Shown here piece by piece: positions 9,774-26,307 of a stretch of DNA of 55,356 bases. Position 1 is the first letter of the stretch. Each line of letters opens with the position of its first letter. Below the pieces are notes generated by a model, which saw only the letters and a list, made by a program, of their open reading frames with translations, ran no database searches and was not told where the DNA came from. The DNA comes from Bacteroidota bacterium (lineage in GTDB: Bacteria; Bacteroidota; Bacteroidia; JABEUT01). The stretch is from positions 1 through 55,356 of the forward strand of contig JABDHI010000012.1 in assembly GCA_013285655.1 (NCBI GenBank), in the 5' to 3' direction. The position numbers and the translations under genes are program-made.

Positions 9774-10709
9774 TTACAAAGTGAAAGCCCTTGAAATAGA
9801 GAACCCTAATTTGAAAGCAGCATTACTCCATGAATCGGTAGTATATGGAATGATATTGTTTTCATTTATGGCAGAGGCGTTGCTCAGGTTAATTTCAAAT
9901 ACGTGTCCACCGGTCTCAATTTCATAGCCAATTGAAAATGCATTAGAATAACTGGGATTGTTGTTGGTACGGAAAGGAGAGATAATGTAAAAATAATCGA
10001 ACACAATAGAGGAGTGTTTGGTTAGCATAACTCTGCCTCCGCCACCTGCAAATGGAATGCCATTTTGATCGGTAGCGCCGTTATTAGGATTAACAGCGGA
10101 TAACACATAATTGCGATGACTGTATCCGGCAAATACTTCAGCTGATATACGATTACTAAATCTGCGATCTAATAATAACTGAGAAACATAAGATAAGCGG
10201 TCTGAAAAATGTTGTGCAGGCGACACAGCCTCAGCGTATAATATTGAATTGGCTTCAGGAGTTATTCCTGCATCTTCATAAAATGCTAAGGATACCGGCA
10301 TGCCAATGGTGTTTTGGGTAAGTATACGATACTTGCCGCTTATATCTATTAGCTGTTGTTGTTCACTTCGGCCTAAACTCAATTGCAGGTTCCTGGTAAC
10401 ACCAAATTCAAATGAAAAATAAATATCAGAAGCTACATCGAATCCGTACAGAGTTGGGAAGCCGCCGCCGCTGGTACCCATATTACCAAAGCGGTGTTCA
10501 ATTCTAAACACCATTACATTCGGGTCGACTGTTTTAGTTGTTTGTGCATTAATGATCCGTGTGTCTTTCCATGTAGAACCAAGTTGTGGTATAGCAACCT
10601 GACTTTTTTGTATAGAATCTTCAAGGGTAGCAAGTGTTTGGCTTGTTGCTGAAAAATAACTTGCGAATAAAATAAATGCGCTAAGGCACAATTTTTTTAG
10701 AGTCTTCAT
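9774..10709 (-). CDS. DUF5777 family beta-barrel protein, copy 1
   Basis: 311 residues with a Sec signal peptide (residues ~1-23, ending SATSQ). The mature protein is rich in amphipathic beta strands and ends in an aromatic-containing C-terminal strand (SISRAFTL), consistent with an outer-membrane barrel. Family landmarks are GSTWKDTRIINAQTTKT, VFRIEHRFGNMG, LQLSLGRS, VSLAFYEDAGITPE and GYEIETGGHVFEINLSNA. A second copy is at 16202-17152, with the same landmarks. It follows a cytochrome-like lipoprotein (10760-11161) by 50 bases, probably in one operon driven by the ECF-type promoter at 11308-11335. The function of DUF5777 is not established; the consistent neighbourhood of heme or redox lipoproteins suggests an envelope redox role. 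Confidence 0.88.
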   Translation of the reverse strand: MKTLKKLCLSAFILFASYFSATSQTLATLEDSIQKSQVAIPQLGSTWKDTRIINAQTTKTVDPNVMVFRIEHRFGNMGTSGGGFPTLYGFDVASDIYFSFEFGVTRNLQLSLGRSEQQQLIDISGKYRILTQNTIGMPVSLAFYEDAGITPEANSILYAEAVSPAQHFSDRLSYVSQLLLDRRFSNRISAEVFAGYSHRNYVLSAVNPNNGATDQNGIPFAGGGGRVMLTKHSSIVFDYFYIISPFRTNNNPSYSNAFSIGYEIETGGHVFEINLSNASAINENNIIPYTTDSWSNAAFKLGFSISRAFTL

Positions 10710-10759: not shown

Positions 10760-11161
10760 TTATTGTGGCGCACCTGCCAATAACCACGCTTTAAACTTAG
10801 CGCTGGTACACGCATCAAGCGGAAGCTCAGGCGCTATAGGCATTCTTTTTTCAATAAATATGTACCTGTAAAAGAAACTTTGTTCGCCACCTGTTACATA
10901 ACGGTTCATGGAAGCATAATTACTAAAATCGCCATGGTCAGATATTCCGGCGTGGCAGCTTGTATTAAAACTACCACAGTTAACATTAATAAGCAGTTGC
11001 ATACTGTTTGTATACGTTAGGTTGGCAGTATCACAACCGGTTGGTAAAGGCGCTGGCTGAGCGGCATTTTTTTCGCAGGAATTGACAGCCAAAATAAAAA
11101 GCACTACTATTATTGTAGTAGCTAGTTTAACAGAAAATAATCGGGATAATTGAAATTTCAT
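10760..11161 (-). CDS. Cytochrome-c-like lipoprotein with expanded C-x6-CH motif, copy 1
   Basis: 133 residues. The signal peptide ends in a lipobox-like NSC (residues ~27-29), followed by EKN. The mature region has the outline of small Bacteroidota heme lipoproteins: GCDTANLTY, then a Cys-rich site NCGSFNTSCHAG, then a C-terminal KAWLLAGAPQ that resembles the end of cytochrome-c domains. The usual CXXCH is replaced by C-x6-CH, so covalent heme binding is plausible but unproven. A paralogue with C-x5-CH lies at 15210-15617. It is the first gene after the minus-strand ECF-type promoter at 11308-11335 and precedes DUF5777 copy 1. Confidence 0.85.
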   Translation of the reverse strand: MKFQLSRLFSVKLATTIIVVLFILAVNSCEKNAAQPAPLPTGCDTANLTYTNSMQLLINVNCGSFNTSCHAGISDHGDFSNYASMNRYVTGGEQSFFYRYIFIEKRMPIAPELPLDACTSAKFKAWLLAGAPQ

Positions 11162-11307: not shown

Positions 11308-11335
11308 AGATGAAGAATTTTGGAAATAGTTGGGT
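11308..11335 (-). promoter_or_regulatory. ECF-type promoter copy 4 (minus strand, lipoprotein/DUF5777 operon)
   Basis: Read on the minus strand: ACCCAAC (11335-11329), 16 bases, CATCT (11312-11308). The same two boxes with 17-base spacing occur three times on the plus strand nearby. It lies 146 bases upstream of the ATG at 11161. ECF sigma factors characteristically use an AAC-containing -35 element, which fits. Confidence 0.7.
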
Positions 11336-11455
11336 CATGAGAACAATCATAGAATATTAAAGCAATGGGGCGAGTTGCAGATAAGGTAAAAAATCTGATA
11401 TTTGTATAAGTGAGTAAGGTTGATAACCCCAGGAAAGCCAATAATTTAGTCGGCT

Positions 11456-11484
11456 ACCCAACCTTTTAGGTTATAGAATCATCT
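11456..11484 (+). promoter_or_regulatory. ECF-type promoter copy 1 (sigma factor operon)
   Basis: ACCCAAC at 11456-11462, 17 bases, CATCT at 11480-11484; the sigma factor ATG begins 14 bases later at 11499. It is shared with three other sites in this region, so self-regulation of the sigma gene is likely. Confidence 0.75.
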
Positions 11485-11498
11485 TAATAAACGAGGCA

Positions 11499-12074
11499 AT
11501 GTCTCAAAAGATATCAGAGGAGGAATTAATAGATGGCTGCCTGTCGGGAACCTGGGCCTTTCAGCAGATGCTTTATAAGCAATATGCGTCCAAGATGCTG
11601 ACAGTTTGCATGAGGTATACGCATAGTAGGTTTGAGGCAGAAGATATATTACAAGAGGGATTTATACTGGTTTTTGAGAAGTTGGCGCAGTTTAAAAAAC
11701 AAGGTTCTTTTGAAGGTTGGATACGTAAGATAATGGTGAACAAAGCAATTGAGCATTACCGAAAATCGGCTGCAGTTTACCCGGTAATAGATGTGGCAGA
11801 TGTTGAAAATGTAATAAGCGTAGAAGATGTAACAAGCCAGATAAACGCAAATGAGCTTTTAAAAATGATACAAGAGCTGCCACCGATGTATAAAATGGTA
11901 TTTAACTTATATGCTTTTGAAGGAATGACCCATAAAGAGATAGCTGAGAAGTTGGGCATTGCTGAAGGAACATCAAAGTCGAACTTATCGGATGCACGTA
12001 CACTGTTGAAGAAGAAGATAACGAGAAACATTTTAATTGCAGAGCTTTACGATGAGCGAAAAGCTTACAAATAA
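11499..12074 (+). CDS. ECF-family RNA polymerase sigma-70 factor
   Basis: 191 residues, typical ECF length. Region 2 is visible in residues ~20-90 (ARYTHSRFEAEDILQEGF-like, with the DILQEGF signature and GSFEGWIRKIMVNKAIEHYRK). Region 4 is at ~125-175 (LPPMYKMVFNLYAFEGMTHKEIAEKLGIAEGTSKSNLSDAR), including the helix-turn-helix. The protein directs RNA polymerase to alternative promoters, usually under control of a membrane partner. The next gene overlaps it by 23 bases and encodes a single-membrane-span protein with a cytoplasmic N-terminus, the expected partner. Four copies of one ECF-like promoter around this gene suggest it activates itself and the surrounding redox genes. Confidence 0.96.
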   Translation: MSQKISEEELIDGCLSGTWAFQQMLYKQYASKMLTVCMRYTHSRFEAEDILQEGFILVFEKLAQFKKQGSFEGWIRKIMVNKAIEHYRKSAAVYPVIDVADVENVISVEDVTSQINANELLKMIQELPPMYKMVFNLYAFEGMTHKEIAEKLGIAEGTSKSNLSDARTLLKKKITRNILIAELYDERKAYK

Positions 12075-13584
12075 TAATATTGATGACATTTTCAGAAACT
12101 CCATTGACAATATGGAGACTGAACCCTCTGAGAGTTTTTGGATAAACGCTTCGGAAGATGCTTTGTTTAAAAGCAATCTTATAAAGAAGAGATCTATTAA
12201 CCGATGGAGGATAGTTGCCGCTGTTTTTAGCATAGCAGTTATGGGGCTTACTGCGTATATAATATATATGCAAAAGCAATTGAACGATGTTAAAAGTAAG
12301 CTGGTTGCAGCAGAACATGTTACTTATATTCAACCGGCGCCAGTAGCCAATTCAACCACTGTAGGTACCAGTGCTGCACCGGTTATTACAAAACAAGCTA
12401 CAAGCCAGGCTGAAGAAAGGTCGGCAAAGAAAGTAGTAAAGCAACAAGAGGTTAAGCATGAAATTGCTACTAATTCTAATACAAGCCTCAAGTCAGTGCA
12501 GCCTTTAGTATATGAAAAAAAGAAGCATAAAAAACATGATCACATTAATGCTTCAGCATCAACTGCTTTAAATTCTACTAATGTTTCAAGTACTGCGCAG
12601 CCCTTGGTATATGAAAGAAAAAGACACAAAAAGCATGAGCATGGAAATACTATAACAGCAAGTGCTGTGAATTCAAATAAGGTTGGTAACAATGGTACTG
12701 TTTATACTTCTACCAACGAGCCAATCGCTTCGAATGCAAGCACAACCGAAGTATCTGAAGGGCCTGAATTTATTAATGTGAATGGAAATAATACAATACC
12801 GCAGGCAAGTGCTTTGCCGCTTGCAATATCAAATAATATAGAGCCGGTGCAAAGCACTGTAAGTTCAGCGGCACGGAAAAATATTTTATCAAAACTTTCT
12901 GTATCACTCTTCTTTGAACCGTATATATCTGATGAGTTATTGGAGAACGAAGCAACTGATATTGTAACCGTAAATAATGTTTCTGCAAACGAAGAAGAGG
13001 CACATCCGTTTGTAGCAGGATTAAAAGTTGATTATAATATACTTAAGAATTTAAGTATTACTACCGGTTGTTTGTTTTATAGCTTTAACGTATCGGTTGC
13101 ACCAACTACTATATACGCCCAAAAACAACAAAATGGTGAAGTAGGATATTCTTTTCAAACAAGTATAGGTACAGTAAATTGCCCTTACGTTAAATCGCCA
13201 AAAGTGGGCGATGGTATGGTGGTTAGCGGGGAGGAGAAAGCAAGTTATATATGTATACCCATTCAACTCAAGTACAATTTTATAACCAATAGCAAATGGG
13301 GACTTTACCTAACCGGAGGAATAGAAGCCAATATAATAGCATTAAGGCAAATGGACATGCAATGGCGTGATTTTAATTGGGATGAAGGCAACGCAAAAGA
13401 AGGAATTGATAATTCGAAAAAAATATACACCTCTTATTATTTAGCTCCCGGTGTTAGGTATAACTTATACAAAGGCATTTCTATTTTCCTCGAACCTTCG
13501 TTACAAGGTTCCCCTATATTTTCAAAGGGAGCAAATACTTTACCATATGCAGGTATAGGTACAGGAATTACATATCATTTTTAA
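12052..13584 (+). CDS. Sigma-factor partner: one-TM protein with His/Lys-rich repeats and C-terminal beta-barrel
   Basis: I place the start at the ATG at 12052 (MSEKLTNN), inside the sigma gene; a TTG at 12037 is less likely. The protein is 510 residues. A short cytoplasmic part (~1-50, with IDDIFRNSIDNME and SESFW) is followed by one membrane helix (~52-72). Next is a low-complexity region with two repeats 33 residues apart (QPLVYEKKKHKKHDH and QPLVYERKRHKKHEH, residues ~150 and ~183). The C-terminal ~220 residues are a porin-like barrel (LKVDYNILKNLSITTGCLFY to GIGTGITYHF). The overlap with the sigma gene suggests an anti-sigma role. A single chain with an inner-membrane helix and an outer-membrane barrel is odd; the helix could also be a cleaved signal. 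Confidence 0.85.
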   Translation: MSEKLTNNNIDDIFRNSIDNMETEPSESFWINASEDALFKSNLIKKRSINRWRIVAAVFSIAVMGLTAYIIYMQKQLNDVKSKLVAAEHVTYIQPAPVANSTTVGTSAAPVITKQATSQAEERSAKKVVKQQEVKHEIATNSNTSLKSVQPLVYEKKKHKKHDHINASASTALNSTNVSSTAQPLVYERKRHKKHEHGNTITASAVNSNKVGNNGTVYTSTNEPIASNASTTEVSEGPEFINVNGNNTIPQASALPLAISNNIEPVQSTVSSAARKNILSKLSVSLFFEPYISDELLENEATDIVTVNNVSANEEEAHPFVAGLKVDYNILKNLSITTGCLFYSFNVSVAPTTIYAQKQQNGEVGYSFQTSIGTVNCPYVKSPKVGDGMVVSGEEKASYICIPIQLKYNFITNSKWGLYLTGGIEANIIALRQMDMQWRDFNWDEGNAKEGIDNSKKIYTSYYLAPGVRYNLYKGISIFLEPSLQGSPIFSKGANTLPYAGIGTGITYHF

Positions 13585-13603
13585 TCACTTAATATAATAT
13601 CGT

Positions 13604-13632
13604 ACCCAACCCTTTGGTGTATAAGTACATCT
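13604..13632 (+). promoter_or_regulatory. ECF-type promoter copy 2 (Rieske gene)
   Basis: ACCCAAC at 13604-13610, 17 bases, CATCT at 13628-13632, 40 bases before the Rieske ATG at 13673. Box sequences and spacing are identical to copy 1. Confidence 0.75.
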
Positions 13633-13672
13633 AATAAGTATAGAGGCATTAGTACCCTAATTATATTTTAAT

Positions 13673-14092
13673 ATGGACAGACGCGATTTTCTTCAGAAGT
13701 CAATTATTCTTTCATGTGGTATTGCAGGTGCATCAGCTTTTTTAGAAGCTTGTAAAAAAAATAATAATACTACCACTGCACCAACTGTAAATTTCACAAT
13801 TGATATCAGTTCATCACAATACAGTGCCTTACAACAAAATGGGGGATATGTGTATAACAGTGCAAACAACATTATAATTGCCCGCGATCATTCTGGGAAT
13901 TTTATTGCTTTATATGATGTTTGCCCTCATGCAGGTTGCACCATACAATTCGACGGTAAGTCCACATTCCCATGCCCTTGCCATGGCTCATTATTTGATG
14001 AAAATGGCAATGTAACGCAAGGACCCGCTACAAGTGGGGTAAAAAAATACAGTACTTCGCTTAAAGGCACCCAATTAAATGTATTCGGTTAG
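13673..14092 (+). CDS. Rieske [2Fe-2S] lipoprotein
   Basis: 139 residues. The N-terminus combines a twin-arginine motif (MDRRDFLQKS) with a lipobox-like LEAC (Cys27), suggesting Tat export as a folded cofactor protein and lipid anchoring. The Rieske centre is complete: CPHAGC (Cys and His of box 1) and CPCHGSLFD (Cys and His of box 2), with both extra Cys residues for the disulfide seen in high-potential Rieske proteins. It is a standalone small Rieske protein, not a bc1 subunit by context, since no cytochrome b gene is nearby. It should carry electrons at the outer face of the inner membrane or at the outer membrane. An ECF-type promoter directly precedes it. Confidence 0.95.
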   Translation: MDRRDFLQKSIILSCGIAGASAFLEACKKNNNTTTAPTVNFTIDISSSQYSALQQNGGYVYNSANNIIIARDHSGNFIALYDVCPHAGCTIQFDGKSTFPCPCHGSLFDENGNVTQGPATSGVKKYSTSLKGTQLNVFG

Positions 14093-14130
14093 TATTGATA
14101 ATCAGATAGTTAAATAATATTTTTAGCATA

Positions 14131-14159
14131 ACCCAACCATAAGGCATATTTCCTCATCT
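14131..14159 (+). promoter_or_regulatory. ECF-type promoter copy 3 (anchor V / YceI / DUF5777 operon)
   Basis: ACCCAAC at 14131-14137, 17 bases, CATCT at 14155-14159. The start codon at 14289 is 129 bases further. A possible sigma-A -7 box (TAAGTTTG, 14200-14207) lies between them, so the operon may have two promoters. Confidence 0.72.
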
Positions 14160-14288: not shown

Positions 14289-15149
14289 ATGAAAAAAGTA
14301 AAGCTACTTATTGGAATTGGAATCGCACTTTCTGCAATGATAATTACTGGGTTCTCTACAAGTAATAATCATAATGGAACCCGTCATGCATCAGGTATGG
14401 ATCAGTATACAGATTCTCCTCCGGACGGCGCTGGAGATTGCACTGGCTGCCACAGTGGTGGAAAAACAACCCCAACATTTACTTTAACAGCTTCACCTGC
14501 TTTAGGTGGTAGTAACAACCAATTTATACCAGGTACAAAATATACATTTACTCTTAAGTTAACAGGCTATTCATATTTTGGATTTGACCTTGAAATAATT
14601 AATGGACAAGCTTCAACTTCACTGGATGCAGGTACTCTTGGTGCAGGTACTTCAACCCAGAAAATTGCTAATAGTGGTGCCCCTACTAATATTACGCATA
14701 CCTCCAAAATCAATTCAACTACAGGTGGAACCTTTACCTGGACAGCTCCTTCAACAGGCAATGCTTATATATATGCAACTATAATGGGTGTTAATGGTGA
14801 TGGTAGCACAAGTGGCGATAAAATGGCTTCTCCTTATGAATTAACTCTTACACCTCAATCAACTGTTTCGGTACAAAATGTTGAGGAAGCAGGTAACTCT
14901 TTCGACGTATATCCTAATCCTATAAAGGATCATTTTAATATTAGTTATTCACTACAAAGTACTAAACAAGTTGAGATCAACTTGTATTCAATTGATGGTA
15001 GAAAAGTGGCAACACTTGCACCTTCTGTTGAACAGTCTGCCGGTGAGTATAATCAACGTTTCGAAATGCCTTCAGTTGCACGCGGTATATACCTTGTTCA
15101 AGTTGTTCAAGACGGACAATTTGCCTGCAAAAAGGTAGTAGTTCAATAA
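14289..15149 (+). CDS. T9SS-secreted protein with CXXCH heme motif and choice-of-anchor V-like domain
   Basis: 286 residues. After the signal peptide (~1-25), a short segment SPPDGAGDCTGCHSGG contains a canonical CTGCH c-type heme motif (residues ~50-54). The middle ~100 residues (YTFTLKLTG, FGFDLEIINGQ, HTSKINSTTGGTFTWTAP) match the choice-of-anchor V/reeler-like beta-sandwich often found with this motif. The C-terminus is a type A T9SS sorting domain (DVYPNPIKDHF, GRKVATL, ARGIYLVQV, ending KKVVVQ). So this should be a surface-exposed or secreted heme protein. It heads an operon with a cytochrome-like lipoprotein, YceI and DUF5777 genes. The heme is inferred from the motif alone. Confidence 0.9.
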   Translation: MKKVKLLIGIGIALSAMIITGFSTSNNHNGTRHASGMDQYTDSPPDGAGDCTGCHSGGKTTPTFTLTASPALGGSNNQFIPGTKYTFTLKLTGYSYFGFDLEIINGQASTSLDAGTLGAGTSTQKIANSGAPTNITHTSKINSTTGGTFTWTAPSTGNAYIYATIMGVNGDGSTSGDKMASPYELTLTPQSTVSVQNVEEAGNSFDVYPNPIKDHFNISYSLQSTKQVEINLYSIDGRKVATLAPSVEQSAGEYNQRFEMPSVARGIYLVQVVQDGQFACKKVVVQ

Positions 15150-15162
15150 TAAGTTCTATAGT

Positions 15163-15193
15163 ATGTAGCGTATAGGAAAACTATACGCTACAT
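15163..15193 (+). terminator. Intra-operon hairpin
   Basis: Perfect 13-bp stem (ATGTAGCGTATAG / CTATACGCTACAT) with loop GAAAA, followed by the T-rich TATTTTA. It lies between the T9SS heme protein and the downstream lipoprotein. It may end transcription partly or protect the mRNA end, lowering or raising expression of the downstream genes. Confidence 0.7.
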
Positions 15194-15209: not shown

Positions 15210-15617
15210 ATGAAGAATAAATTTTTGATTGGGGTTGCAATAGTGGGAGCTATTATGACAATTAATTCGTGTGACAGCGAAGAAAATGCACTTCCTGCTC
15301 CTATAACTCCTTCAAGTTGCGATACCAGTAAAATGACCTACTCAACAAACTCAGGTCAAATACAAGGCATTATTAATGCACAGTGTGCAACAACGCCAAG
15401 CTGTCATGGCGCGGGTGCCACTAAAGTAAGTGGTGACTTTTCTTCATGGACCGCACCTAAACTCCAACAGGCAATATCAGGCGGAACAGGCAGCACTATG
15501 TATCAATACCTTCAACCTACCTATCCTACACCAATGCCTAATGTTCCTCAACCAGGCTGGAGCGAATGCGATAGGTTGAAGCTAGACGCATGGCTTCAAG
15601 CAGGCGCCCCTCAATAG
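15210..15617 (+). CDS. Cytochrome-c-like lipoprotein with expanded C-x5-CH motif, copy 2
   Basis: 135 residues with a lipoprotein signal (lipobox-like NSC at ~19-21, then DSEEN). The mature part is parallel to copy 1 (10760-11161): SSCDTSKMTY, a Cys-His site QCATTPSCHGAG, GDFSSW, and the C-terminal LDAWLQAGAPQ. The site is C-x5-CH rather than CXXCH, so heme attachment would be atypical. It lies 19 bases upstream of the YceI gene and downstream of the hairpin at 15163-15193, in the operon headed by 14289. Function is likely electron transfer at the envelope, by analogy with Bacteroidota heme lipoproteins; a metal- or disulfide-based alternative cannot be excluded. Confidence 0.85.
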   Translation: MKNKFLIGVAIVGAIMTINSCDSEENALPAPITPSSCDTSKMTYSTNSGQIQGIINAQCATTPSCHGAGATKVSGDFSSWTAPKLQQAISGGTGSTMYQYLQPTYPTPMPNVPQPGWSECDRLKLDAWLQAGAPQ

Positions 15618-15635: not shown

Positions 15636-16187
15636 ATGAAAAAGAAATTAATTCTTACCGCAGCACTTTGTGCAACTATGTTTGGCTATGGATTCGGACA
15701 AATATATATGGCTGATTCTGCCCGTATATCTTTCTTCTCAAAAACCAGTGCTGAAGATATTGATGCGGCAAACACAGTTTGCAAACCTATTATGAGCGTT
15801 GCAACCGGTGAGTTTGACGTAAGCCTTATCAATACATCTTTTGATTTTCCAAAGCCTTTAATGAAGGAACACTTCAATGAAGATTATATGGAATCGGCTA
15901 AATTTCCAAAAACAGTATTTACCGGAAAAATTACCGGTTCGGTTGATTACTTAGAGGATGGAACTTATAACGTATCGGTAACCGGTACTATGGATATGCA
16001 CGGAGTTAAAAAACAAATTACCGTTCCGGGTACCATTACTGTAAAGAATGGAATATTATTTGTTTATGCAAAGTTCAACGTTAAAATTGCTGACTATAAT
16101 ATTAAATTACCTTCTTTCCTTAGCATGAATGTGGCAGATAATGTGGATGTAACTGTTAGGGCCACAATGAAACCTTATAAGAAATAG
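15636..16187 (+). CDS. YceI family protein
   Basis: 183 residues with a Sec signal peptide (cleavage after GFGQ, ~21). The mature protein shows YceI landmarks: ARISFFSKTSAEDIDA, ATGEFDVSLINTSFDFPKPLMKEHFNEDYMES, KFPKTVFTGKITG, and the C-terminal VTGTMDMHGVKKQITVPGTI. YceI proteins have an extended lipocalin fold and bind isoprenoid chains; structural work on family members found polyisoprenoid or quinone ligands. It should be periplasmic. Its place between a cytochrome-like lipoprotein and a DUF5777 barrel fits handling of a quinone-like molecule in an envelope redox system, which is inference. Confidence 0.94.
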   Translation: MKKKLILTAALCATMFGYGFGQIYMADSARISFFSKTSAEDIDAANTVCKPIMSVATGEFDVSLINTSFDFPKPLMKEHFNEDYMESAKFPKTVFTGKITGSVDYLEDGTYNVSVTGTMDMHGVKKQITVPGTITVKNGILFVYAKFNVKIADYNIKLPSFLSMNVADNVDVTVRATMKPYKK

Positions 16188-16201: not shown

Positions 16202-17152
16202 ATGCAGTTAAACAAAGGCCTTTTATTAGGTGCAGTGTTATTGTGTGGAACCGCTTTTACTGCCAATAGCCAAAGCTTATTAGGAATCACAGATTCAATA
16301 CAAAAAACTACACAACCTCCTCCTCCATTGGAGTCGACATGGAAGGATACCAGGTTAATAAATGAGCAAACCACTAAAACTGCATCACCAGGGGTAATGG
16401 TATTTAGGGTCGATCACCGTTTTGGTAATATGGGCGCTGCAAGTAATGGTGGCATACATACACTTTATGGGTTTGATGTGGTTACCGATATTTATTTAGG
16501 TTTTGAATTTGGTATACTTAAAAACTTACAAGTGGCAGTTGGCCGTAGTAAAAGTTTGGAATTATTAGATGGGAGTATTAAATACAGGCCACTTACTCAA
16601 CAATCTATTGGTATGCCCATATCGCTTGCTATTTATGGCGATGCAGCAATAACACCTGAATTAAGCTCTGTGTTTTATAGCGGAGGTACTGATTCAACAG
16701 CTGCTTTGCAAGGCACCAGAGACAGGATGACCTACACTACAGAGCTATTAATTGACAGAAAATTTGGTGATGTTGGTTCACTTGAATTAATTGCAGGCTT
16801 TAATCACCGTAATTATGTGTTGGCGGTGCATAATCCTTCAAGTGGTGCGCGCGACTCCAACAACATTGCTTATATTGGTGCTGCAGGCAGAGTAAGACTT
16901 AGTAAACATGCTGCACTAGTATTCGAGTATAACTATATCATGTCGGCATACCGAATGAATAACACGGCTACACCATACTATAACGTCTTTTCTGTGGGAT
17001 ATGAAATTGAAACAGGCGGACACGTATTTGAAATTAACCTAAGCAATGCTGCTTATCTTGACATTAACAATATCATACCTAATTCTACAGATACATGGAG
17101 TAAAGGAGGATTCAAGCTTGGCTTCTGTATTTCCAGAGCATTTAATATTTAG
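16202..17152 (+). CDS. DUF5777 family beta-barrel protein, copy 2
   Basis: 316 residues, 14 bases after the YceI gene, last gene of the ECF-linked operon. The signal peptide ends near FTANSQ. The landmarks shared with copy 1 at 9774-10709 include DSIQK, ESTWKDTRLINEQTTKT, VFRVDHRFGNMG, NHRNYVLAV and YEIETGGHVFEINLSNAAY, and both end in a SRAF strand, so the two are paralogues. Amphipathic strands and the terminal aromatic pattern (CISRAFNI) suggest an outer-membrane barrel. The function is not established for the family. The paired lipoprotein-DUF5777 arrangement on both sides of the sigma factor suggests an ancient block duplication and inversion. Confidence 0.9.
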   Translation: MQLNKGLLLGAVLLCGTAFTANSQSLLGITDSIQKTTQPPPPLESTWKDTRLINEQTTKTASPGVMVFRVDHRFGNMGAASNGGIHTLYGFDVVTDIYLGFEFGILKNLQVAVGRSKSLELLDGSIKYRPLTQQSIGMPISLAIYGDAAITPELSSVFYSGGTDSTAALQGTRDRMTYTTELLIDRKFGDVGSLELIAGFNHRNYVLAVHNPSSGARDSNNIAYIGAAGRVRLSKHAALVFEYNYIMSAYRMNNTATPYYNVFSVGYEIETGGHVFEINLSNAAYLDINNIIPNSTDTWSKGGFKLGFCISRAFNI

Positions 17153-17171: not shown

Positions 17172-17200
17172 AAAGCCCTGCAGTTGTGCGGGGCTTTTTT
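17172..17200 (+). terminator. Rho-independent terminator after DUF5777 copy 2
   Basis: Stem AAAGCCCTGCA / TGCGGGGCTTT (one G-T pair), loop GTTG, followed by T6, 19 bases after the stop. It closes the redox operon. Confidence 0.92.
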
Positions 17201-17324
17201 ATTTTAATGTTAAGCGTAGCTAAACTCAGCTTGAAGGGTTATTGAAGCCAAGTCGTCTATAAAGAGATATTTGCAAGTGGGCAGAAGATACCTTTGTGTA
17301 ATTTTGAAGATAAACCCTATTCAA

Positions 17325-18590
17325 TTGCCTATAAGTAGATTACTCGAAAAGTGGGAAACCATTTTGATTTTATTAGTACTAGCCTCAGAGCTATCCACCG
17401 CCCAAACTAACACGGTTATTAAAACCATGAGAGAAGTAGCGGGTACCAATCGAGACAGTATGGTGATTGCTAAAAGAGAGCAGAAGATGCCTGATCAAAA
17501 AGATATAGGCGATATTTTCAGAAGCATCTTTAAAATAAAGACAAGTAATAATACTGATAGTCTTTTTGAAAGGCCAGGTAAATTATTCTTTTCTTTTGCT
17601 CCTGCAGGCGGGTACACACTTGAGGGTGGCCTTACAGGAGTAATGGTGGTAAATTCTTCTTTTTATACAAGCGATCCTAAAACCACCAACTTGTCCGTCT
17701 TTACTTTCGGAGGACAATACTCCCTCGACCATCAATTAATAGTGCCTATTATTAGTAATATCTGGACAAAGGATAATAAATATGATTTGCTTGGCGATTG
17801 GCGATATTATAATTACCCGTCTAAAACATTTGGATTGGGCTCAGACAATTCACTATCAAATTTTGATGTAGTTGATTATTCATATATAAAGATTTACCAG
17901 GAAGTACTCAGACATTTTAGTTCATATTATTATGTGGGTGCTGGTTATGACTTCGATTATCATTATGGCATCAGCACAACCACTGATGTAACGAATTTTC
18001 AATTATACAATGATGGGCTAAGAAGAACCACTTCATCGGGCCCTATAGTGCATTTAATGTACGACAACCGTACAAATAGCAATAACCCGAAGAAGTCATT
18101 ATACGCAAGTGTAATATTACGGGCAAACACTACCTTTTTGGGTAGCAACCAGAACTGGCAATACCTGCAGGTTGAAATAAGAAAGTATGTAATGATATCA
18201 CCACATGATGTACTTGCCTTTTGGAGTTGGAATGAATTTACAAATGGGAAAGCGCCTTATTTTGATCTGCCAAGTAATCAGTGGGATACTTATTCAAATA
18301 CGGGCAGAGGCTATATACAGGGCTTTTACAGAGGAACCAACCTTGTATATTTGGAGGCAGAATACCGATTTGGCATAACACACAATGGCCTGTTCGGCGG
18401 TGTAATATTTTCGAATGCGGGTAGTGCAAGCCAATGGCCATCTAATAGGTTTCAATATGTTGATCCGGCAGAGGGAGTTGGCCTTCGTATAAAGTTCAAC
18501 AAATATTCTGATGTTAACCTGTGTATTGATTATGCTATCGGGTTATTTGGGTCACGTGGTGTCTTCTTCAACTTAGGTGAAGTATTTTAG
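17325..18590 (+). CDS. Omp85/BamA-TamA-like outer membrane barrel protein, copy 1
   Basis: The frame is open from a TTG at 17271, but a promoter-like TACCTTTG (17289-17296) lies inside that stretch. I prefer the TTG at 17325, which gives a normal signal peptide (n-region SRLLEKWE, h-region TILILLVLA, end STAQ); the start is uncertain. The protein of ~420 residues has a short periplasmic N-terminus without recognisable POTRA domains. A bacterial-surface-antigen-type barrel follows: LYASVILRANTTFLGS, VLAFWSWNEFTNGKAPYFDLPS, GRGYIQGFYRG, NLVYLEAEYRF, GLFGGVIFSNAG, and a C-terminal strand ending FNLGEVF. A close paralogue follows at 18688. The role is unknown; an outer-membrane transport or assembly function would be family-level inference. 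Confidence 0.85.
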   Translation: MPISRLLEKWETILILLVLASELSTAQTNTVIKTMREVAGTNRDSMVIAKREQKMPDQKDIGDIFRSIFKIKTSNNTDSLFERPGKLFFSFAPAGGYTLEGGLTGVMVVNSSFYTSDPKTTNLSVFTFGGQYSLDHQLIVPIISNIWTKDNKYDLLGDWRYYNYPSKTFGLGSDNSLSNFDVVDYSYIKIYQEVLRHFSSYYYVGAGYDFDYHYGISTTTDVTNFQLYNDGLRRTTSSGPIVHLMYDNRTNSNNPKKSLYASVILRANTTFLGSNQNWQYLQVEIRKYVMISPHDVLAFWSWNEFTNGKAPYFDLPSNQWDTYSNTGRGYIQGFYRGTNLVYLEAEYRFGITHNGLFGGVIFSNAGSASQWPSNRFQYVDPAEGVGLRIKFNKYSDVNLCIDYAIGLFGSRGVFFNLGEVF

Positions 18591-18687
18591 TGATTTGAAT
18601 TAAAGCAAGTAAACCAATTTAATATCGTCGAATAAGTAAGGTACAAAGAAATGAAGTGGCGAACTATTAAATATAATCAGGGCAGTT

Positions 18688-19935
18688 TTGCGTAGAATAA
18701 GGTTTAAGAAAATTTTACTGTTTATCCTATTACAGGTAACCGTCTCCACGTGCACCCTTGCTCAATTACCTGCCTTTAATACAAAAGATACTTCCATTCA
18801 GGCAAAGAAGAACGATACCAATCGTTATTTGCAGAAGGATGCAATGGATATGATCACTAAAGTACTTAAGATAAAAAACAATGAAGAAGCAGATACTGAA
18901 AACCTAAGAGCGGGTAAATTATATAAATCCATTTTTCCCGCTTTGGGCTATTCCCTTTCTAATGGAGTAACTTTTATATTGGCTTCGAATTTCTCTTTCT
19001 ATACCAATAACCCGAAAACAACGAATTTATCGGTAATTACCTTAAACCCTTTATACTCTCTTAAGCAGCAAACCATTATACCATTACTAAGCAGTATATG
19101 GTTAAAAGATAACAAGATCAATATTCTGGGTGATTATCGCTTTTATCAATATCCTTCTTTTACATACGGACTGGGAGGCCGGCGTTTAATATCGCAAGCC
19201 GACTCGGTAGATTATTCGTACATAAAAATATCTCAGGAGGCACTCTATGCTATTTCGCATAACTTATATGGCGGCATAGGGTACGATTGGGATTATCATT
19301 ATAATATTAAAGAATACGGGCATGCCCGGCAGTATGAGGGATATACACATTCGGTAGGTGCAACATCCTCTTCAGGACTTGTGGCTCGTTTAAAATACGA
19401 TAGCCGAACCAATATTAATAACCCCAAAAATGCATTCTATGCCGATTTGGAATACCGTGATAATTTGACCAGCTTAGGGAGTTCATCTAACTGGCAGGAA
19501 ATAGAAGTGGAATTCAGGAAATACATAAGTCTTTCTAAGTATCCGAGCAACGTATTAGCCTTTTGGAGCTGGAATGAATTTACCTATGGGGGCAAAGTAC
19601 CGTATTTCGATCTTCCAAGCGTTGGATGGGATGAATATTCAAATACTGGCAGGGGCTTTATACAGGGCAGGTTCAGAGGTTCAGATATTATATACTTGGA
19701 GGGGGAGTATAGGTTCGATATTTTGCGGAATGGCTTGCTTGGCGGGGTGGTGTTTTGCAATGGCGAATCGGTGCCTAATTACCCTTCCGAAAGGTTTACT
19801 GCCATTCACGTAGGTAAAGGCATAGGATTGCGTATTAAAATGAATAAATATTCCAATACCAACCTCTGTATTGACTATGGTATTGGCGATCAAGGCTCCA
19901 GGGGCTTCTTTTTCAACGTTGGCGAAGTATTTTAG
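18688..19935 (+). CDS. Omp85/BamA-TamA-like outer membrane barrel protein, copy 2
   Basis: 415 residues, starting at a TTG (no in-frame ATG in range). It has a clear signal peptide (RRIRFKKILLFILLQ, end CTLAQ). It is a tandem paralogue of the preceding gene: both carry a short segment MDMITKVLKIKNNE / IFRSIFKIKTSNN, NNPKTTNLSV / DPKTTNLSVF, VLAFWSWNEFT, PYFDLPS, GRGFIQGRFRG, and end in FFNVGEVF. The size fits a surface-antigen barrel without POTRA repeats. A weak hairpin follows before secA. No operon partner is visible between the two copies (97-base gap). Substrate and function are not known. Confidence 0.87.
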   Translation: MRRIRFKKILLFILLQVTVSTCTLAQLPAFNTKDTSIQAKKNDTNRYLQKDAMDMITKVLKIKNNEEADTENLRAGKLYKSIFPALGYSLSNGVTFILASNFSFYTNNPKTTNLSVITLNPLYSLKQQTIIPLLSSIWLKDNKINILGDYRFYQYPSFTYGLGGRRLISQADSVDYSYIKISQEALYAISHNLYGGIGYDWDYHYNIKEYGHARQYEGYTHSVGATSSSGLVARLKYDSRTNINNPKNAFYADLEYRDNLTSLGSSSNWQEIEVEFRKYISLSKYPSNVLAFWSWNEFTYGGKVPYFDLPSVGWDEYSNTGRGFIQGRFRGSDIIYLEGEYRFDILRNGLLGGVVFCNGESVPNYPSERFTAIHVGKGIGLRIKMNKYSNTNLCIDYGIGDQGSRGFFFNVGEVF

Positions 19936-20034: not shown

Positions 20035-23000
20035 ATGTTAGAAGGTTTTGTAAGTGCATTATCGAAGGTATTTGGTAATAAGCACGACCGCGATGTTAAA
20101 GAAATTCAACCGGTAGTAGATAATATACTTGAAATTGAAAAGTCACTGGCTTCCATTAGTAATGATCAATTACGTGGCAAAACAGCTGAGTTTAAAAAAC
20201 GTATACAGGATAAAATTGGCGCCAGCGAACAACGCAAGACTGAACTGAAGCAAAAGGTTGAGTCAGATGAAGCTCTTCCGGTAAAAGAAAAGGAAGATAT
20301 ATATACTGAAGTTGATAAACTTGAGAAAGAAATATTAACCACCATTACAAGCGAGCTTGACAGCATATTGCCTGAAGCATTTGCAGTAATGCGCGAAACA
20401 GCAAGGCGCTTTAAAGAAAAAGCAACCATTGAAGTAAATGCTACTGAGTGGGATAAAGAACTTGCAGCAGATTTTAACCACATTAAGATACAAGGCGATA
20501 CTGCCAGTTGGAACACAACCTGGAGTGTGCGCGGTAATGATGTAAAGTGGGATATGGTGCCTTACCCTGTTCAGCTTATTGGTGGTGCAGTATTGCACTC
20601 GGGTAAAATTGCCGAAATGGCTACAGGTGAGGGTAAAACCCTTGTGGGTATATTACCTGTTTACCTCAATGCATTATCGGGCCGTGGTGTACATTTAGTA
20701 ACGGTAAACGATTACCTGGCAAAACGTGACTCAGAATGGATGGCCCCTTTGTTCCAGTTTCATGGACTTAAAGTTGATTGTATTGACAGGCATGAGCCGA
20801 ATTCGAACGAAAGGCGCGATGCTTACTTAGCTGATATTACGTACGGAACTAATAACGAATATGGCTTCGACTACCTGCGTGATAATATGGCACGTTCACC
20901 GGGAGACCTGGTGCAACGCGGACACTTTTTTGCCATTGTCGATGAGGTCGATTCAGTATTGATTGATGATGCACGTACCCCATTAATTATTTCGGGTCCT
21001 ACACCGCGTGGCGATAAGCATGAGTTCTTCCAGATGAAACCGCGTGTGGAAAAACTGATGAACGCACAACGTACCTATGTAAATAAGGCTTTGGCTGATG
21101 CTAAAGTATTAATTGAGAGCGGAGATAAAGAAAAGGAAAAAGAAGGCGGTGTTGCATTATTGCGTGCGCACAGAGGTCTGCCTAAGAATAAAGCACTCAT
21201 TAAATTTTTAAGTGAAGAAGGCCGTAGGGCGCTCTTGCAAAAGACAGAGAACCTCTACATGCAGGATAATGGCAGAGAAATGAGCAAGATCGATGAAGAG
21301 CTCTTTTTTGTTATAGATGAAAAAAATAATACAGTTGAATTAGCGGAAAAAGGTATTGACCTCATTACATCGCAAGGCGAAGACCCTAAGTTCTTTATCC
21401 TTCCTGATGTTGGAAGCGAGATAGCGGAAATTGAAAAAATGGAAGCTCCGGATGAAGAGAAAGCGAAGCGGAAAGATGAAATGCTCCGTGATTTTTCAAT
21501 TAAAACCGAACGTGTACACACCATTAACCAGTTATTAAAAGCATACACCTTATTTGAAAAAGATGTGGAGTATGTGGTGATGGAAGGGGAAGTAAAAATT
21601 GTTGACGAGCAAACAGGCCGTATTATGGAAGGCCGTCGTTATTCTGATGGTTTGCACCAGGCTATTGAAGCAAAAGAAAATGTTAAGATAGAAGCAGAAA
21701 CTCAAACCTACGCTACTATTACTCTACAGAATTATTTCCGTATGTATCATAAGCTTGCCGGTATGACTGGTACGGCCGAAACAGAAGCGGGTGAATTTTG
21801 GAGTATATACAAACTTGAAGTTGTTGCCATACCAACGAACAAAGACATGGTTCGTGAGGATAGAGAAGATTTAGTTTACAAAACGAAGAGAGAAAAATAC
21901 AATGCCGTTATTGACCAGATACAGGAAGCTGTAAAAGCAGGAAGGCCTGTGCTGGTGGGTACTACATCGGTTGAAGTATCGGAATTACTTAGCCGTATGT
22001 TAAAGCTGCGTGGCGTTAAACACAACGTACTGAACGCAAAATTACACGAGCGCGAAGCAGAGATTGTTGCTGAAGCGGGTAAGCCGGGTACAGTAACTAT
22101 TGCTACCAACATGGCGGGCCGTGGTACCGACATTAAATTAGGTGCCAATGTTGCTACCTCGGGTGGTTTGGCCATTATGGGTACCGAACGCCACGAATCG
22201 CGCCGTGTTGACCGCCAGTTGCGTGGTCGTGCAGGCCGCCAGGGCGATCCGGGTTCATCGCAATTCTTTGTATCGTTGGAAGATGACCTGATGCGTTTAT
22301 TCGGTTCAGAGCGTATTGCTAAGATGATGGACAGAATGGGTATTGAAGAAGGGGAAGTAATTCAACACGGACTCATTACCAAGTCTATCGAACGTGCGCA
22401 GAAGAAAGTGGAAGAGAACAACTTTGGTATACGTAAACGCCTTATCGACTATGATGATGTAATGAACCAACAGCGTGAGGTTATATACACACGTCGTCGT
22501 CACGCATTATTTGGCGAAAGAATTTCGGTTGATATTGCGAATATGTTCCTTGATGTTTGCGAAACTATTGTAAGCGAATACCACGCTGAAGAAACCGATT
22601 TCGAAGGGTTTAAAATTGAAGTATTACGTACGCTTTCTATAGAGCCACCGGTAACTCAGGATGAATTTAACAGCCTTAAGAGCGAGGATGTGGCTCATAA
22701 GCTTTTCGAAAAGATAGAAGACACTTACATAAGGAAACACGATAAGATATCTAAGGAAGTATTCCCATTCATTAAGAATGTTTTTGAAGACCCTAATAAC
22801 CGTTTCGAAAACATTCAGATACCGATGTCTGATGGATTAAGAGTAGTGCCTATTGTAGTTAATTTAAAGAGCGCTTACCAAAGCGGTGGTAAAGAAGTAT
22901 TGCAAGCACTTGAAAAGAGTGTTATACTGGCTGTAACGGATGATGAATGGAGGGAACACCTTCGTGAGATGGATGACCTTCGCCAATCGGTTCAGAATGC

Positions 23001-23343
23001 TGTATACGAGCAAAAAGATCCATTACTTATTTATAAGTTCGAGTCGTTCGAATTATTTAAGGCTATGGTAGTAAGGATGAACAAGAGCATTGCTTCATTC
23101 TTAATGAAGAGTGCCGTATTTGTTCAGAACCCGGAGCAGATAAAAGAAGCTGAGGTTTTGGAACACCAGGAAGTGGAATATGAAACCAGCCGTTCGGGTG
23201 GAGAAGCTAATGCACAACAACAAGGCAGTGGTGCACCCGCTCCTAAGCCGCAACAACCCGCCAAGGCAGAGAAACGTATTGGTCGTAATGACCCATGCCC
23301 TTGTGGTAGTGGAAAAAAATACAAAAACTGTCACGGAAAGTAA
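20035..23343 (+). CDS. secA: Preprotein translocase ATPase SecA
   Basis: 1102 residues, longer than the E. coli protein because of insertions usual in Bacteroidota SecA. It drives protein export through SecYEG. Motifs: Walker A in MATGEGKTL (residues ~193-200), [31 protein letters not shown], the Walker B DEVDS (~303), the [12 protein letters not shown] helicase region, [13 protein letters not shown], and [19 protein letters not shown]. The C-terminus has a Gln/Pro/Ala linker and the zinc-binding SEC-C motif [13 protein letters not shown]. The last codons and stop (TGTCACGGAAAGTAA) form the left end of the integrated element; the right end keeps an equivalent TGTCACGGAAAATAA, so insertion swapped the final Lys codon but left the protein intact. 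Confidence 0.98.
23328..23343 (+). repeat. Left attachment site (attL) in the secA 3' end
   Basis: CTGTCACGGAAAGTAA, the last codons and stop of secA. The same 16 bases with one change (A for G) lie at 29230-29245. The recombinase gene begins ~200 bases inside this end. Confidence 0.8.
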
Positions 23344-23375
23344 CCGCCAAACTTATTTGGTATCATTTTATATAC

Positions 23376-23411
23376 AAAACCCCTATCAAGTTTAAACCTG
23401 ATAGGGGTTTT
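23376..23411 (+). terminator. Terminator now serving secA, inside the element
   Basis: Perfect 13-bp stem AAAACCCCTATCA / TGATAGGGGTTTT with a 10-base loop, 32 bases after the secA stop. It lies inside the element, so the insertion supplied secA with a replacement terminator. Confidence 0.88.
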
Positions 23412-23466
23412 ATCATTCTGACACCTCTTTTTGTATAGTGTATTCATACTGTTTTCTACCGTATTA

Positions 23467-23487
23467 TTTGTACCTCCGTTGTATCTT
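23467..23487 (+). repeat. Left 21-bp subterminal repeat (probable integrase arm site)
   Basis: A 21-base unit beginning TTTGTACCTCCGTTG and ending TATCTT. It recurs at 29148-29168 with one change (C to T). Part-copies follow it: GTTGTATCTTG (23499-23509) and TTTGTACCTTT (23510-23520). Confidence 0.65.
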
Positions 23488-23490
23488 TAC

Positions 23491-23521
23491 TTGAGGCAGT
23501 TGTATCTTGTTTGTACCTTTA
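23491..23521 (+). promoter_or_regulatory. Putative integrase promoter overlapping arm-like repeats
   Basis: TTG at 23491-23493, a 20-base spacer, then TACCTTTA (7 of 8 to TAnnTTTG) at 23514-23521, 21 bases before the integrase ATG at 23543. It overlaps the arm-like part-repeats, so integrase binding could repress its own gene (inference). Confidence 0.45.
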
Positions 23522-23542
23522 GGCAAGAAATACAAACTGAAA

Positions 23543-24679
23543 ATGATAAAAGTAAAGCTAAGAAACAAGGTAATTTTAGGGGGCAAGAAAAGTTTATACC
23601 TTGACTTCTACCCACCAATTTTACACCCTGATACACAAAAAAATACCCGTAGGGAAGTATTAGGCCTATACATATACGATAAGGCTAAAACACCACTACA
23701 AAAGAATCATAACAATGAAACCTTGTCCCTTGCTGAAAACATTAGGGCAAAAAGACAGATTGAAATTCAAAGTGGCCAATACGGATTTCTATCAACTCAA
23801 AAATACAATGGCGATTTTTTAGATTACTTTCAAGAATTAATTGAAAAGAGAAATAAGAATAGCCGAGGAGCTTGGCAATGTGCATTAGTTTATCTTAAAG
23901 AATTTACAGGAGGGAAAATACGCTTTTCCGACATTAACGTGAAATTTTGCAATGACTTTAAAACATATATTTTAAAGGCTCACCGATTAAGAAGCCGTAA
24001 ATTTTTAATATCACAAAATACTGCACAGTCATATTTTAATAGGTTAAAGGCTGCATTAAAACAAGCCTACAAGGAAGGATTAATAAAAACTGATATTAGT
24101 ATTCAGGTTGAACGTATTAAAGATGCTGAAACTGAAAGAAAATTTGTAACGATTGAAGAATTAAATAAACTAATCCGTACAGAATGCGGATTACCTTTAT
24201 TAAAACAGGCTGCTTTATTTTCAGCACTTACTGGATTAAGATTCTCGGATATTCAAAAATTACAATGGAAAGAGGTACGAAAAAATAAAGGCGCAAATGG
24301 TAAAACAAACTACACATTACATTTTACACAAAAGAAAACTAAAGGTGTTGAGGTATTACCAATATCACAACAGGCTTACGAATTACTAGGTGTAGAAGGT
24401 CAACAGGATGAGAAAGCTTTTGAAGGACTTCAATACTCAGCATTTGTCAATTTTCACTTGAAGCGTTGGATACTGGAGGCAGGGATAACTAAAAACATAA
24501 CCTTTCACTGTTTTAGACATACCTATGCCACCTTACAACTAAGTGCGGGGACTGACCTTTATACAGTAAGCAAAATGCTAGGTCACAGGGACATTAAGAC
24601 TACACAGATATATGCCAAAGTAATGGATAAAGCAAAACGAGAGGCTTCGGAAAGGATAGTGTTGGATTTTTCACAATAA
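23543..24679 (+). CDS. Site-specific tyrosine recombinase (integrase) of the element
   Basis: I choose the ATG at 23543 (MIKVKLRNKV); the frame extends to a TTG at 23507, which would overlap the promoter. This gives 378 residues. The order is an N-terminal arm-DNA-binding domain (~1-85, KSLYLDFYPPIL), a SAM-like core-binding domain (~95-195, YLKEFTGGKIRFSDI), and a catalytic domain. The catalytic residues are visible: Arg in SALTGLRFSDI, His-x-x-Arg in HCFRHTYAT, His in LGHRDIKTT and the nucleophile Tyr in QIYAKVM. It is the enzyme that integrated this element at the secA 3' end. It is distinct in sequence from the housekeeping Xer recombinase at 37335-38210. Confidence 0.95.
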   Translation: MIKVKLRNKVILGGKKSLYLDFYPPILHPDTQKNTRREVLGLYIYDKAKTPLQKNHNNETLSLAENIRAKRQIEIQSGQYGFLSTQKYNGDFLDYFQELIEKRNKNSRGAWQCALVYLKEFTGGKIRFSDINVKFCNDFKTYILKAHRLRSRKFLISQNTAQSYFNRLKAALKQAYKEGLIKTDISIQVERIKDAETERKFVTIEELNKLIRTECGLPLLKQAALFSALTGLRFSDIQKLQWKEVRKNKGANGKTNYTLHFTQKKTKGVEVLPISQQAYELLGVEGQQDEKAFEGLQYSAFVNFHLKRWILEAGITKNITFHCFRHTYATLQLSAGTDLYTVSKMLGHRDIKTTQIYAKVMDKAKREASERIVLDFSQ

Positions 24680-24711
24680 AAATATTTTGATACCATAGGA
24701 CAAATATTAAA

Positions 24712-24738
24712 TAAACAGTTTTAAGTCAAAACTGTTTA
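24712..24738 (+). terminator. Perfect inverted repeat after the integrase gene
   Basis: 11-bp arms TAAACAGTTTT / AAAACTGTTTA around AAGTC, 32 bases after the integrase stop. It could act as an intrinsic terminator (A+T-rich stem) or as an operator for the chimeric HTH-containing gene downstream. Confidence 0.55.
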
Positions 24739-24749
24739 TCTCGGAACAC

Positions 24750-24780
24750 TTGTTTTTACCATAAAAGCAGTATAGTTTTG
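24750..24780 (+). promoter_or_regulatory. Promoter of the HsdS-ATPase-HNH operon
   Basis: TTG at 24750-24752, a 20-base spacer, TAGTTTTG at 24773-24780 (matches TAnnTTTG), 45 bases before the TTG start at 24826. Confidence 0.6.
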
Positions 24781-24825
24781 CGATGTCCTTTAACCAATAG
24801 TAAATTTCTGTGAAGATGGTATCAA

Positions 24826-26307
24826 TTGGAAAAATTTGTGGTTACATCCTTATCGCTGGATGAATTTAGGGTTATTATTGAAGATTGCTTAAATAATATT
24901 CTCAAAGGGAGTAATTTTAACAGTTCTTTTTCTCAATTTGAACCTCCTGATAAACTCCTAACTGTTAAGGAAGCGGCAAGTTTTCTATCTATAACAGTAA
25001 TTGTAAGACCCAATCAGTTCGCTTATAATCCATCGCGTATAAATGTGGGCTCAATTGATTATTTACGAACTGATTTTGAAGTGGCAATAAGCCCTCTATA
25101 CATAGTATTTGAGTGCAAAAACAATTTAAGGAATGATTATTTATTGCGTTACTTGAAGAGCCCAATAGGAAATGACCAAATCAGAAATAAAACAAGAGGG
25201 GCAGTAAGAGAGAATCTTAGCTATAATAGTTTATTAGAAATTAATATACCAATTCCTTCAATTCAGGAACAAGGAAAAATTGCTAAACTTCTTACAAAGA
25301 TTGAGGAAATTATAACGAAAAGGGAAGAAAGTATTGGATTGTTGGATGAAATACTGATCAGTAGATTTAATAGGATGTTTGGTGACCCAATTAGAAATCA
25401 GAAGGGATTTAATAAAATGCAACTAGGTAATTTGGGGGATTGGAAAAGTGGGGGAACTCCTTCAAGAAGCAATGAGGAATATTTTACCGGTGATATACCT
25501 TGGTTGACTTCAGGAGAGTTACAAGATATATACATTAATGAAAGCAAGGAGAAAATAACTTTTGAGGCTGTTAAAAATTCTGGTGCAAAATTAATTGAAG
25601 AGGGAAGTCTATTACTAGGTATGTATGATACTGCCGCATTAAAGTCTTCAATTACTAAAGGTAAGGTTACTTGTAATCAAGCTATTGCTTATGCTAAATT
25701 GAATAGAAAGCTATGCAATACTATTTTTATCTACTTCTTAATTCAAATTGGAAAGGAGTATTTTAAAAGGCAACAAAGGGGTGCTCGTCAACAGAACATG
25801 AATATTTCCATGATAAAAAACATAGAAGTAATTCAACCACCCATTGAATTACAGGATGAATTTGGTGAAATTGTGAAGAAGGTAATAGAAATTAAGAATT
25901 CTCATTCTGCGAACATATACGAGATTAGAAAGCTTTATTCTGCAGTATCATCGTTAGTATTTAATGGTAGTATAGATTTGGGTAATATTCATATTGAGAA
26001 CGTAATTCCTAAGGCAATTGGTGGAACTAATAGTGAGCAGAATATTAAGATTAGATCTGAAAATACTAAGATAAATAATAGTCTTAACGATATTTTGAAC
26101 AATGTAGTTATAAAATATTTCAAAAATAAAGCATTTAGTTATGAGGAATTAGCGGAAAAAATACAAGCTCATTTGGAAGAGGAGGAATATCAATATGATA
26201 AAATACGACTTCATTTGTTTGCTTCTTTAAGAGGATTAGGAAATATTAAACTAGGGCAGTTCTATAATGAAGAGAAAAAAATAATTCAGTTGCAAGTTAT
26301 TAAATGA
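24826..26307 (+). CDS. Chimera: excisionase-like HTH N-terminus fused to truncated type I restriction specificity subunit (HsdS)
   Basis: 493 residues from a TTG; an in-frame stop at 24811 excludes anything longer. Residues 1-58 look like the start of a MerR/excisionase-type helix-turn-helix protein (LSLDEFRVIIEDCL, then LLTVKEAASFLSIT), but the second half of that domain is missing. From residue ~59 the sequence becomes HsdS: the end of the first target-recognition domain (RPNQFAYNPSRINVGSIDY, IVFECKNNLRNDYLLRYL, NIPIPSIQEQGKIAKLL), a spacer helix (~150-185), a full second recognition domain (~190-370, MFGDPIRNQKGF, GGTPSRSNEEYF, NIEVIQPPIELQ), and a ~115-residue C-terminal extension. So half of the first recognition domain is lost. 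No hsdM or hsdR is nearby. It overlaps the ATPase gene by 4 bases. Confidence 0.85.
   Translation: MEKFVVTSLSLDEFRVIIEDCLNNILKGSNFNSSFSQFEPPDKLLTVKEAASFLSITVIVRPNQFAYNPSRINVGSIDYLRTDFEVAISPLYIVFECKNNLRNDYLLRYLKSPIGNDQIRNKTRGAVRENLSYNSLLEINIPIPSIQEQGKIAKLLTKIEEIITKREESIGLLDEILISRFNRMFGDPIRNQKGFNKMQLGNLGDWKSGGTPSRSNEEYFTGDIPWLTSGELQDIYINESKEKITFEAVKNSGAKLIEEGSLLLGMYDTAALKSSITKGKVTCNQAIAYAKLNRKLCNTIFIYFLIQIGKEYFKRQQRGARQQNMNISMIKNIEVIQPPIELQDEFGEIVKKVIEIKNSHSANIYEIRKLYSAVSSLVFNGSIDLGNIHIENVIPKAIGGTNSEQNIKIRSENTKINNSLNDILNNVVIKYFKNKAFSYEELAEKIQAHLEEEEYQYDKIRLHLFASLRGLGNIKLGQFYNEEKKIIQLQVIK

Follow-up and report, generated by a model that had tools for sequence, protein, structure and literature searches.

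A putative autoregulated ECF sigma factor-Dma system and its promoter sites around an envelope gene cluster in an uncultured Bacteroidota bacterium

The locus described here raises the question of what reads a two-box element that recurs around the gene of an ECF sigma factor, and how far the set of genes behind it extends. In the window, i.e. the whole stretch of 55,356 nucleotides that was analysed, the pattern ACCCAAC-N15..18-CATCT showed exactly four matches. Since dinucleotide shuffles contained a mean of 0.03 matches and none of 100 shuffles reached four, a chance recurrence of the four sites (four observed vs. 0.03 expected) was ruled out.

Promoter sites and the genes behind them

The pattern search confirmed the four positions given in the initial annotation as the only ones in the window. 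Promoter 1 (11308-11335) lies on the minus strand and comprises the spacer N16, and promoters 2 (11456-11484), 3 (13604-13632) and 4 (14131-14159) lie on the plus strand with N17. The spacers had been listed as 17, 17, 17 and 16, which is correct for the values but not for the order, since the 16 belongs to the minus-strand site, the first by coordinate. The distances to the start codon, claimed to range from 14 to 146 bases, were measured in coordinate order as 146 (minus-strand lipoprotein gene), 14 (sigma factor gene), 40 (Rieske gene) and 129 bases (operon head).

The sigma factor (11499-12074, plus strand, 191 aa; Pfam PF04542/PF08281, TIGR02937) consists of the sigma2 and sigma4 domains only, and its recognition helix GTSKSNLSDAR contains Asp165 according to the alignment. 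Promoter 2, located 14 bases 5' of the gene, is of the AAC type and phylogenetically conserved. Judged from sequence comparison, the sigma factor is almost certainly positively autoregulated, and almost certainly the four sites are its ECF promoters.

Promoter 3 precedes a Rieske [2Fe-2S] lipoprotein (13673-14092, plus strand; PF00355), which carries a Tat-like signal (RRDF), a lipobox and the intact ligand motifs CPHAGC and CPCHGS. Promoter 4 precedes a plus-strand operon, headed by a choice-of-anchor V protein with one CXXCH and a T9SS C-terminal sorting domain (14289-15149; NF041895, PF18962) and continuing with a cytochrome-like lipoprotein with a stretched C-x5-CH (15210-15617; recognised by sequence, with family matches below threshold only), a YceI-family protein (15636-16187; PF04264) and, as the final gene, a DUF5777 beta-barrel protein (16202-17152; PF19089). 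The operon ends at an intrinsic terminator of 11 pairs with a T tail (17172-17197, plus strand). A strong hairpin of 13 pairs (15163-15193, plus strand) follows the CXXCH gene, ahead of the next operon gene, and possibly acts as a partial terminator, which would limit the expression of the downstream genes. On the minus strand, divergent from the sigma gene and 3' of promoter 1, lie a cytochrome-like lipoprotein with a stretched C-x6-CH (10760-11161) and a second DUF5777 beta-barrel protein (9774-10709; PF19089). Since the CH motifs of both lipoproteins are degenerate, their haem binding is uncertain. The envelope-redox theme proposed for these genes fits the gene content; from this content we infer the redox role itself.

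Three further regions of the window are recorded as separate observations. A type I specificity-like subunit, a PtuA-like AAA ATPase and a PtuB/PDC-M01B-like protein (24826-29054) adjoin an integrase-like gene (23507-24679) and represent a candidate Septu-like defence island. Two tandem paralogous outer-membrane proteins, the first of them weakly Omp85-like, are located at 17271-19935 between the DUF5777 operon and secA, and two tandem paralogous lipoproteins at 587-2474.

The assembly of the same genome (2.69 Mb in 121 contigs, 69% complete) was scanned by patterns, and no further exact copy of ACCCAAC-N16/17-CATCT was found in it. Two matches with N15, on contigs C3 and C36, both lie within coding repeats. 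A non-coding near-copy, ACCCAAC-N17-TATCT, was found on contig C6 at 121 bases 5' of a FadL/OmpP1 gene and is possibly a fifth site of this genome; the FadL ortholog of G008, a genome in which no Asp-type sigma factor was detected, showed no site. The shorter core CCAAC-N17/18-ATCT yielded 44 matches genome-wide and 44 in a control with the reversed pattern, so that at this chance level only the extended motif is informative. Since the assembly is 69% complete, further targets may be missing from it.

Conservation of the sites and the base preceding CAAC

Within the genus, conservation was checked in ten other genomes. One sister species (G009) preserves the whole arrangement of four sites, including a counterpart of promoter 1 (G009:C48:4887-4914) with the same spacing of 16. 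A second sister species (G004) showed three sites in the same places, on a contig that does not contain the divergent lipoprotein/DUF5777 pair. Promoters 3 and 4 are conserved in both, and promoter 3 also in another family, where G025 carries sites at the sigma and Rieske genes. In other families of the class (G025, G034, G194, G361 and G375), a site lies 5' of the sigma gene, and frequently a second one follows the Dma gene described below. The comparison of orthologous sigma genes, which had been proposed with the initial annotation, thus found the boxes kept in sister species and in other families. Searching up to 150 bases upstream, [CG]CAAC-N16/17-CATCT was present at 43 of the 132 sigma relatives with usable upstream sequence compared to 16 of 1560 other ORFs and 0.045 in shuffles, while about two thirds of the 132 showed no recognisable site of this form within this distance.

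Among the sites upstream of the relatives, the base preceding CAAC tracks the residue at position 165 of the sigma factor. With Asp at this position, CCAAC was found in 17 of 17 cases, and with Arg or Lys, GCAAC in 33 of 34; the split gives a Fisher value of 3e-12 after removal of duplicates and without correction for kinship. The single exception is L168, whose site is weak. At 60 further loci, all 31 cases of Arg or Lys with a site showed GCAAC with no exception, and the one Asp among them was accompanied by CCCAAC and a TGTCT -10 box. In the tree, Asp is confined to one clade with a single origin. Nested within it, L094 shows a return to Arg together with a promoter back at CGCAAC, and two further changes lead from Asp to His (GCAAC, CGTCT -10) and from Asp to Tyr (TTGAAC, CGTCT -10). 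Since Asp arose once and related rows are not independent, the independent changes of residue and promoter number about four. The sigma-Dma paralogues of the genus with His or Tyr, GCAAC or TTGAAC, and CGTCT (L075, L076, L079 and L082) are too few for a firm rule.

Solved ECF sigma factors carry an Arg at the position aligned with residue 165. In SigH of M. tuberculosis, two bonds connect R186 with the first G of GGAAC, and S182 is in contact with the base following it (PMC6411747); S161 and D165 of the window sigma factor show the same four-residue spacing. An equivalent Arg-G contact was described in a study on C. glutamicum. By analogy, Asp165 probably contacts the C preceding CAAC, and a reading of C by Asp and of G by Arg would be chemically sensible. 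That the sigma factor reads these sites, its own included, as the initial annotation had supposed, is supported by the conserved placement across species and families and by the covariation of residue and base.

The extent of the regulon differs between the genomes. G004 carries an additional copy of the site 5' of an unlinked CXXCH T9SS gene, and G001 carries copies 5' of a c-type lipoprotein/DUF5777 pair and of a CXXCH T9SS gene; this assembly of 60% completeness yielded no Asp-type sigma factor. In G001 and G003, sites of like targets are located on contigs other than that of any detected sigma gene. In G003, G005 and G007 the CXXCH/lipoprotein/YceI/DUF5777 cluster lies on a different contig from the sigma gene, and the site of its first gene has one mismatch. 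Among the genus relatives, CXXCH operon heads mostly showed 0-2 mismatches compared to 3-5 for nearly all internal genes. No site was found at the Rieske-headed cluster of G010, or at one of the two CXXCH genes in each of G002 and G005. In G005 the site after the Dma gene precedes a cupredoxin with a T9SS tail. The redox theme does not hold throughout, since the targets change from one subclade to another (cupredoxin, other lipoproteins). The targets are conserved in kind, and tight clustering belongs to the window species and its nearest relatives rather than to the system. The description as a self-contained, local regulon is only partly right, given the related species with equivalent sites at unlinked genes and the possible C6 site in the same genome.

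These unlinked sites, the number of related sigma genes, which reaches four or five per genome in related species, and the possible fifth site at FadL would also suit a single genome-wide envelope regulon, in which several sigma-Dma paralogues share sites and none is private. We regard this as improbable, since the paralogues of the genus differ in residue and promoter (Asp/CCAAC, Arg/TGCAAC, His/GCAAC with CGTCT, Tyr/TTGAAC with CGTCT) and the sole paralogue found in the same genome is of the Arg type. The latter pair (L102, contig C32, about 22756-25005) carries Arg at the recognition position and the promoter TGCAAC-N18-CATCT, so that the genome contains both kinds, the window pair with Asp and CCCAAC and the C32 pair with Arg and TGCAAC. 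A gene with distant similarity to the CXXCH T9SS gene adjoins the L102 pair.

The Dma-type partner and the reader of the sites

The initial annotation overlooked the nature of the second gene in the sigma operon, which probably encodes a Dma-type anti-sigma factor (12052-13584, plus strand; PF13505, AlphaFold model, Foldseek, alignment). Anti-sigma factors of this class have a four-part architecture, adjoin ECF21 sigma genes and are limited to Bacteroidota (PMC13088901). It shares the last 23 bases of the sigma gene, and the pairing is kept in many relatives. In the alignment of 14 relatives, the N terminus of the protein shows a conserved helical D..F...P..W pattern, which lies in helices of the model. 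A hydrophobic stretch at about residues 54-73 is contained in a modelled helix of residues 27-88. It is followed by residues 88-278, nearly all of which have a pLDDT below 50 and which align poorly among the relatives, and by a C-terminal barrel (PF13505) with about eight long strands in the AlphaFold model, for which the best solved Foldseek matches include OmpA and Ail. Of six features of the Dma class, sequence and model support four (transmembrane helix, disordered tether, outer-membrane barrel and adjacency to the sigma gene), and the N terminus is a candidate sigma-binding domain that matches in shape and conservation. The adjacency rule of PMC13088901 would place the sigma factor in group ECF21.

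As Pfam detected no anti-sigma domain in the first 90 residues, the protein might instead be an outer-membrane sensor, with the sigma factor being controlled by other means. This is quite unlikely in view of the gene order, the overlap with the sigma gene, the single transmembrane helix, the disordered tether, the OmpA-like barrel and the conserved N-terminal D..F...P..W, all of which agree with the architecture described for Dma (PMC13088901). An assignment as a Dma-type anti-sigma factor is preferred.

A shared upstream element by itself does not identify its reader, and the repeated element could in principle be the operator of another DNA-binding regulator, with the sigma gene merely being one of its targets. 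Two boxes with a fixed spacing of 16-17 and an AAC-type -35 are, however, typical of an ECF promoter (PMC8103513), and the -35 base follows the recognition-helix residue of the adjoining sigma factor across families and within-genome paralogues, which makes an operator very unlikely. That the sites are housekeeping-type promoters, alike by chance or by the local duplication seen in the two lipoprotein/DUF5777 modules flanking the sigma gene, is hardly credible, since the spacers differ among the four sites although both boxes are identical, a search of the intergenic regions for the Bacteroidota housekeeping pattern (TTTG / TAnnTTTG) gave no full match, and like sites precede non-homologous genes in other families.

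Proposed mechanism and relation to known systems

With the sites assigned to the adjoining sigma factor, the locus very probably encodes a positively autoregulated sigma-Dma system that controls an envelope gene set of redox type and in which Asp165 reads the C preceding CAAC. In this system the ECF sigma factor and the Dma-type anti-sigma factor would form one signalling unit. Dma would comprise an inner-membrane anchor, a disordered tether across the periplasm and an outer-membrane barrel at its end, with its cytoplasmic N-terminal helices holding the sigma factor. A change in the outer membrane, sensed by the barrel or the tether, would set the sigma factor free, and RNA polymerase with the freed sigma factor would initiate at the ACCCAAC-N16/17-CATCT promoters. 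The sigma-Dma operon, raised by its own sigma factor, would thereby act as amplifier and brake. The Rieske lipoprotein, the operon of CXXCH T9SS protein, cytochrome-like lipoprotein, YceI and DUF5777, and the divergent lipoprotein/DUF5777 pair would be raised as well. Reading of the C preceding CAAC by Asp165 in region 4 is predicted to insulate the pathway from the Arg/GCAAC sigma-Dma paralogue in the same genome.

Compared to Das2-Dma2 and Das1-Dma1 of Bacteroides thetaiotaomicron, which consist of an ECF21 sigma factor and a dual membrane-spanning anti-sigma factor (PMC13088901), the window pair is alike in its adjacent sigma and anti-sigma genes, in the four-part architecture of the anti-sigma factor and in its restriction to Bacteroidota. 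The reported outputs of Das-Dma are outer-membrane vesicles and polysaccharide utilisation loci (PMC13088901), whereas the predicted targets in the window are redox-type envelope proteins. While an explicit promoter is given for the window system, the word "motif" does not occur in PMC13088901 on Das-Dma. The Bacteroidales relatives in this data set showed Arg with CGCAAC or AGCAAC, in contrast to Asp with CCCAAC in the window pair. Positively autoregulated ECF sigma factors in general, such as RpoE of E. coli and SigH of M. tuberculosis, resemble the window system in comprising sigma2 and sigma4 only, in the AAC-type -35 and CGTC/CATC-type -10, in the co-transcribed anti-sigma factor and in autoregulation. 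In the window system the first contacted -35 base is a C, apparently recognised by Asp, where these have a G and an Arg, and the anti-sigma factor extends to the outer membrane. The residue-to-base code of ECF promoters by Todor et al. 2020, as described in a review (PMC8103513), matches sigma residues to promoter bases via autoregulated ECFs; its logic is the same as that of the rule linking residue 165 to the -35 base.

A broader reading would be that a single recognition-helix residue (Arg/Lys, Asp, His or Tyr) determines the promoter base preceding CAAC and thereby insulates the sigma-Dma pathways of Bacteroidota from one another, and that in the Asp-type pathway the outer-membrane barrel controls a surface redox module stretching between the periplasm and the T9SS-secreted layer. 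We put this forward tentatively and consider it somewhat less probable than its opposite. In the accessible literature we found no report of a surface redox module as the role of a Dma system.

The Dma anti-sigma factors of Bacteroidota were described as a class only recently, and little is known of their direct targets. The present analysis supplies a concrete promoter for sigma-Dma systems, with the -35 base predicted from one sigma residue, and for Bacteroidales-type pairs the prediction would be CGCAAC-N17-CATCT. One Dma pathway would be linked to envelope genes of redox type instead of vesicles or glycan loci, and the target lists as well as the insulation of the pathways thereby become directly testable in laboratory Bacteroides.
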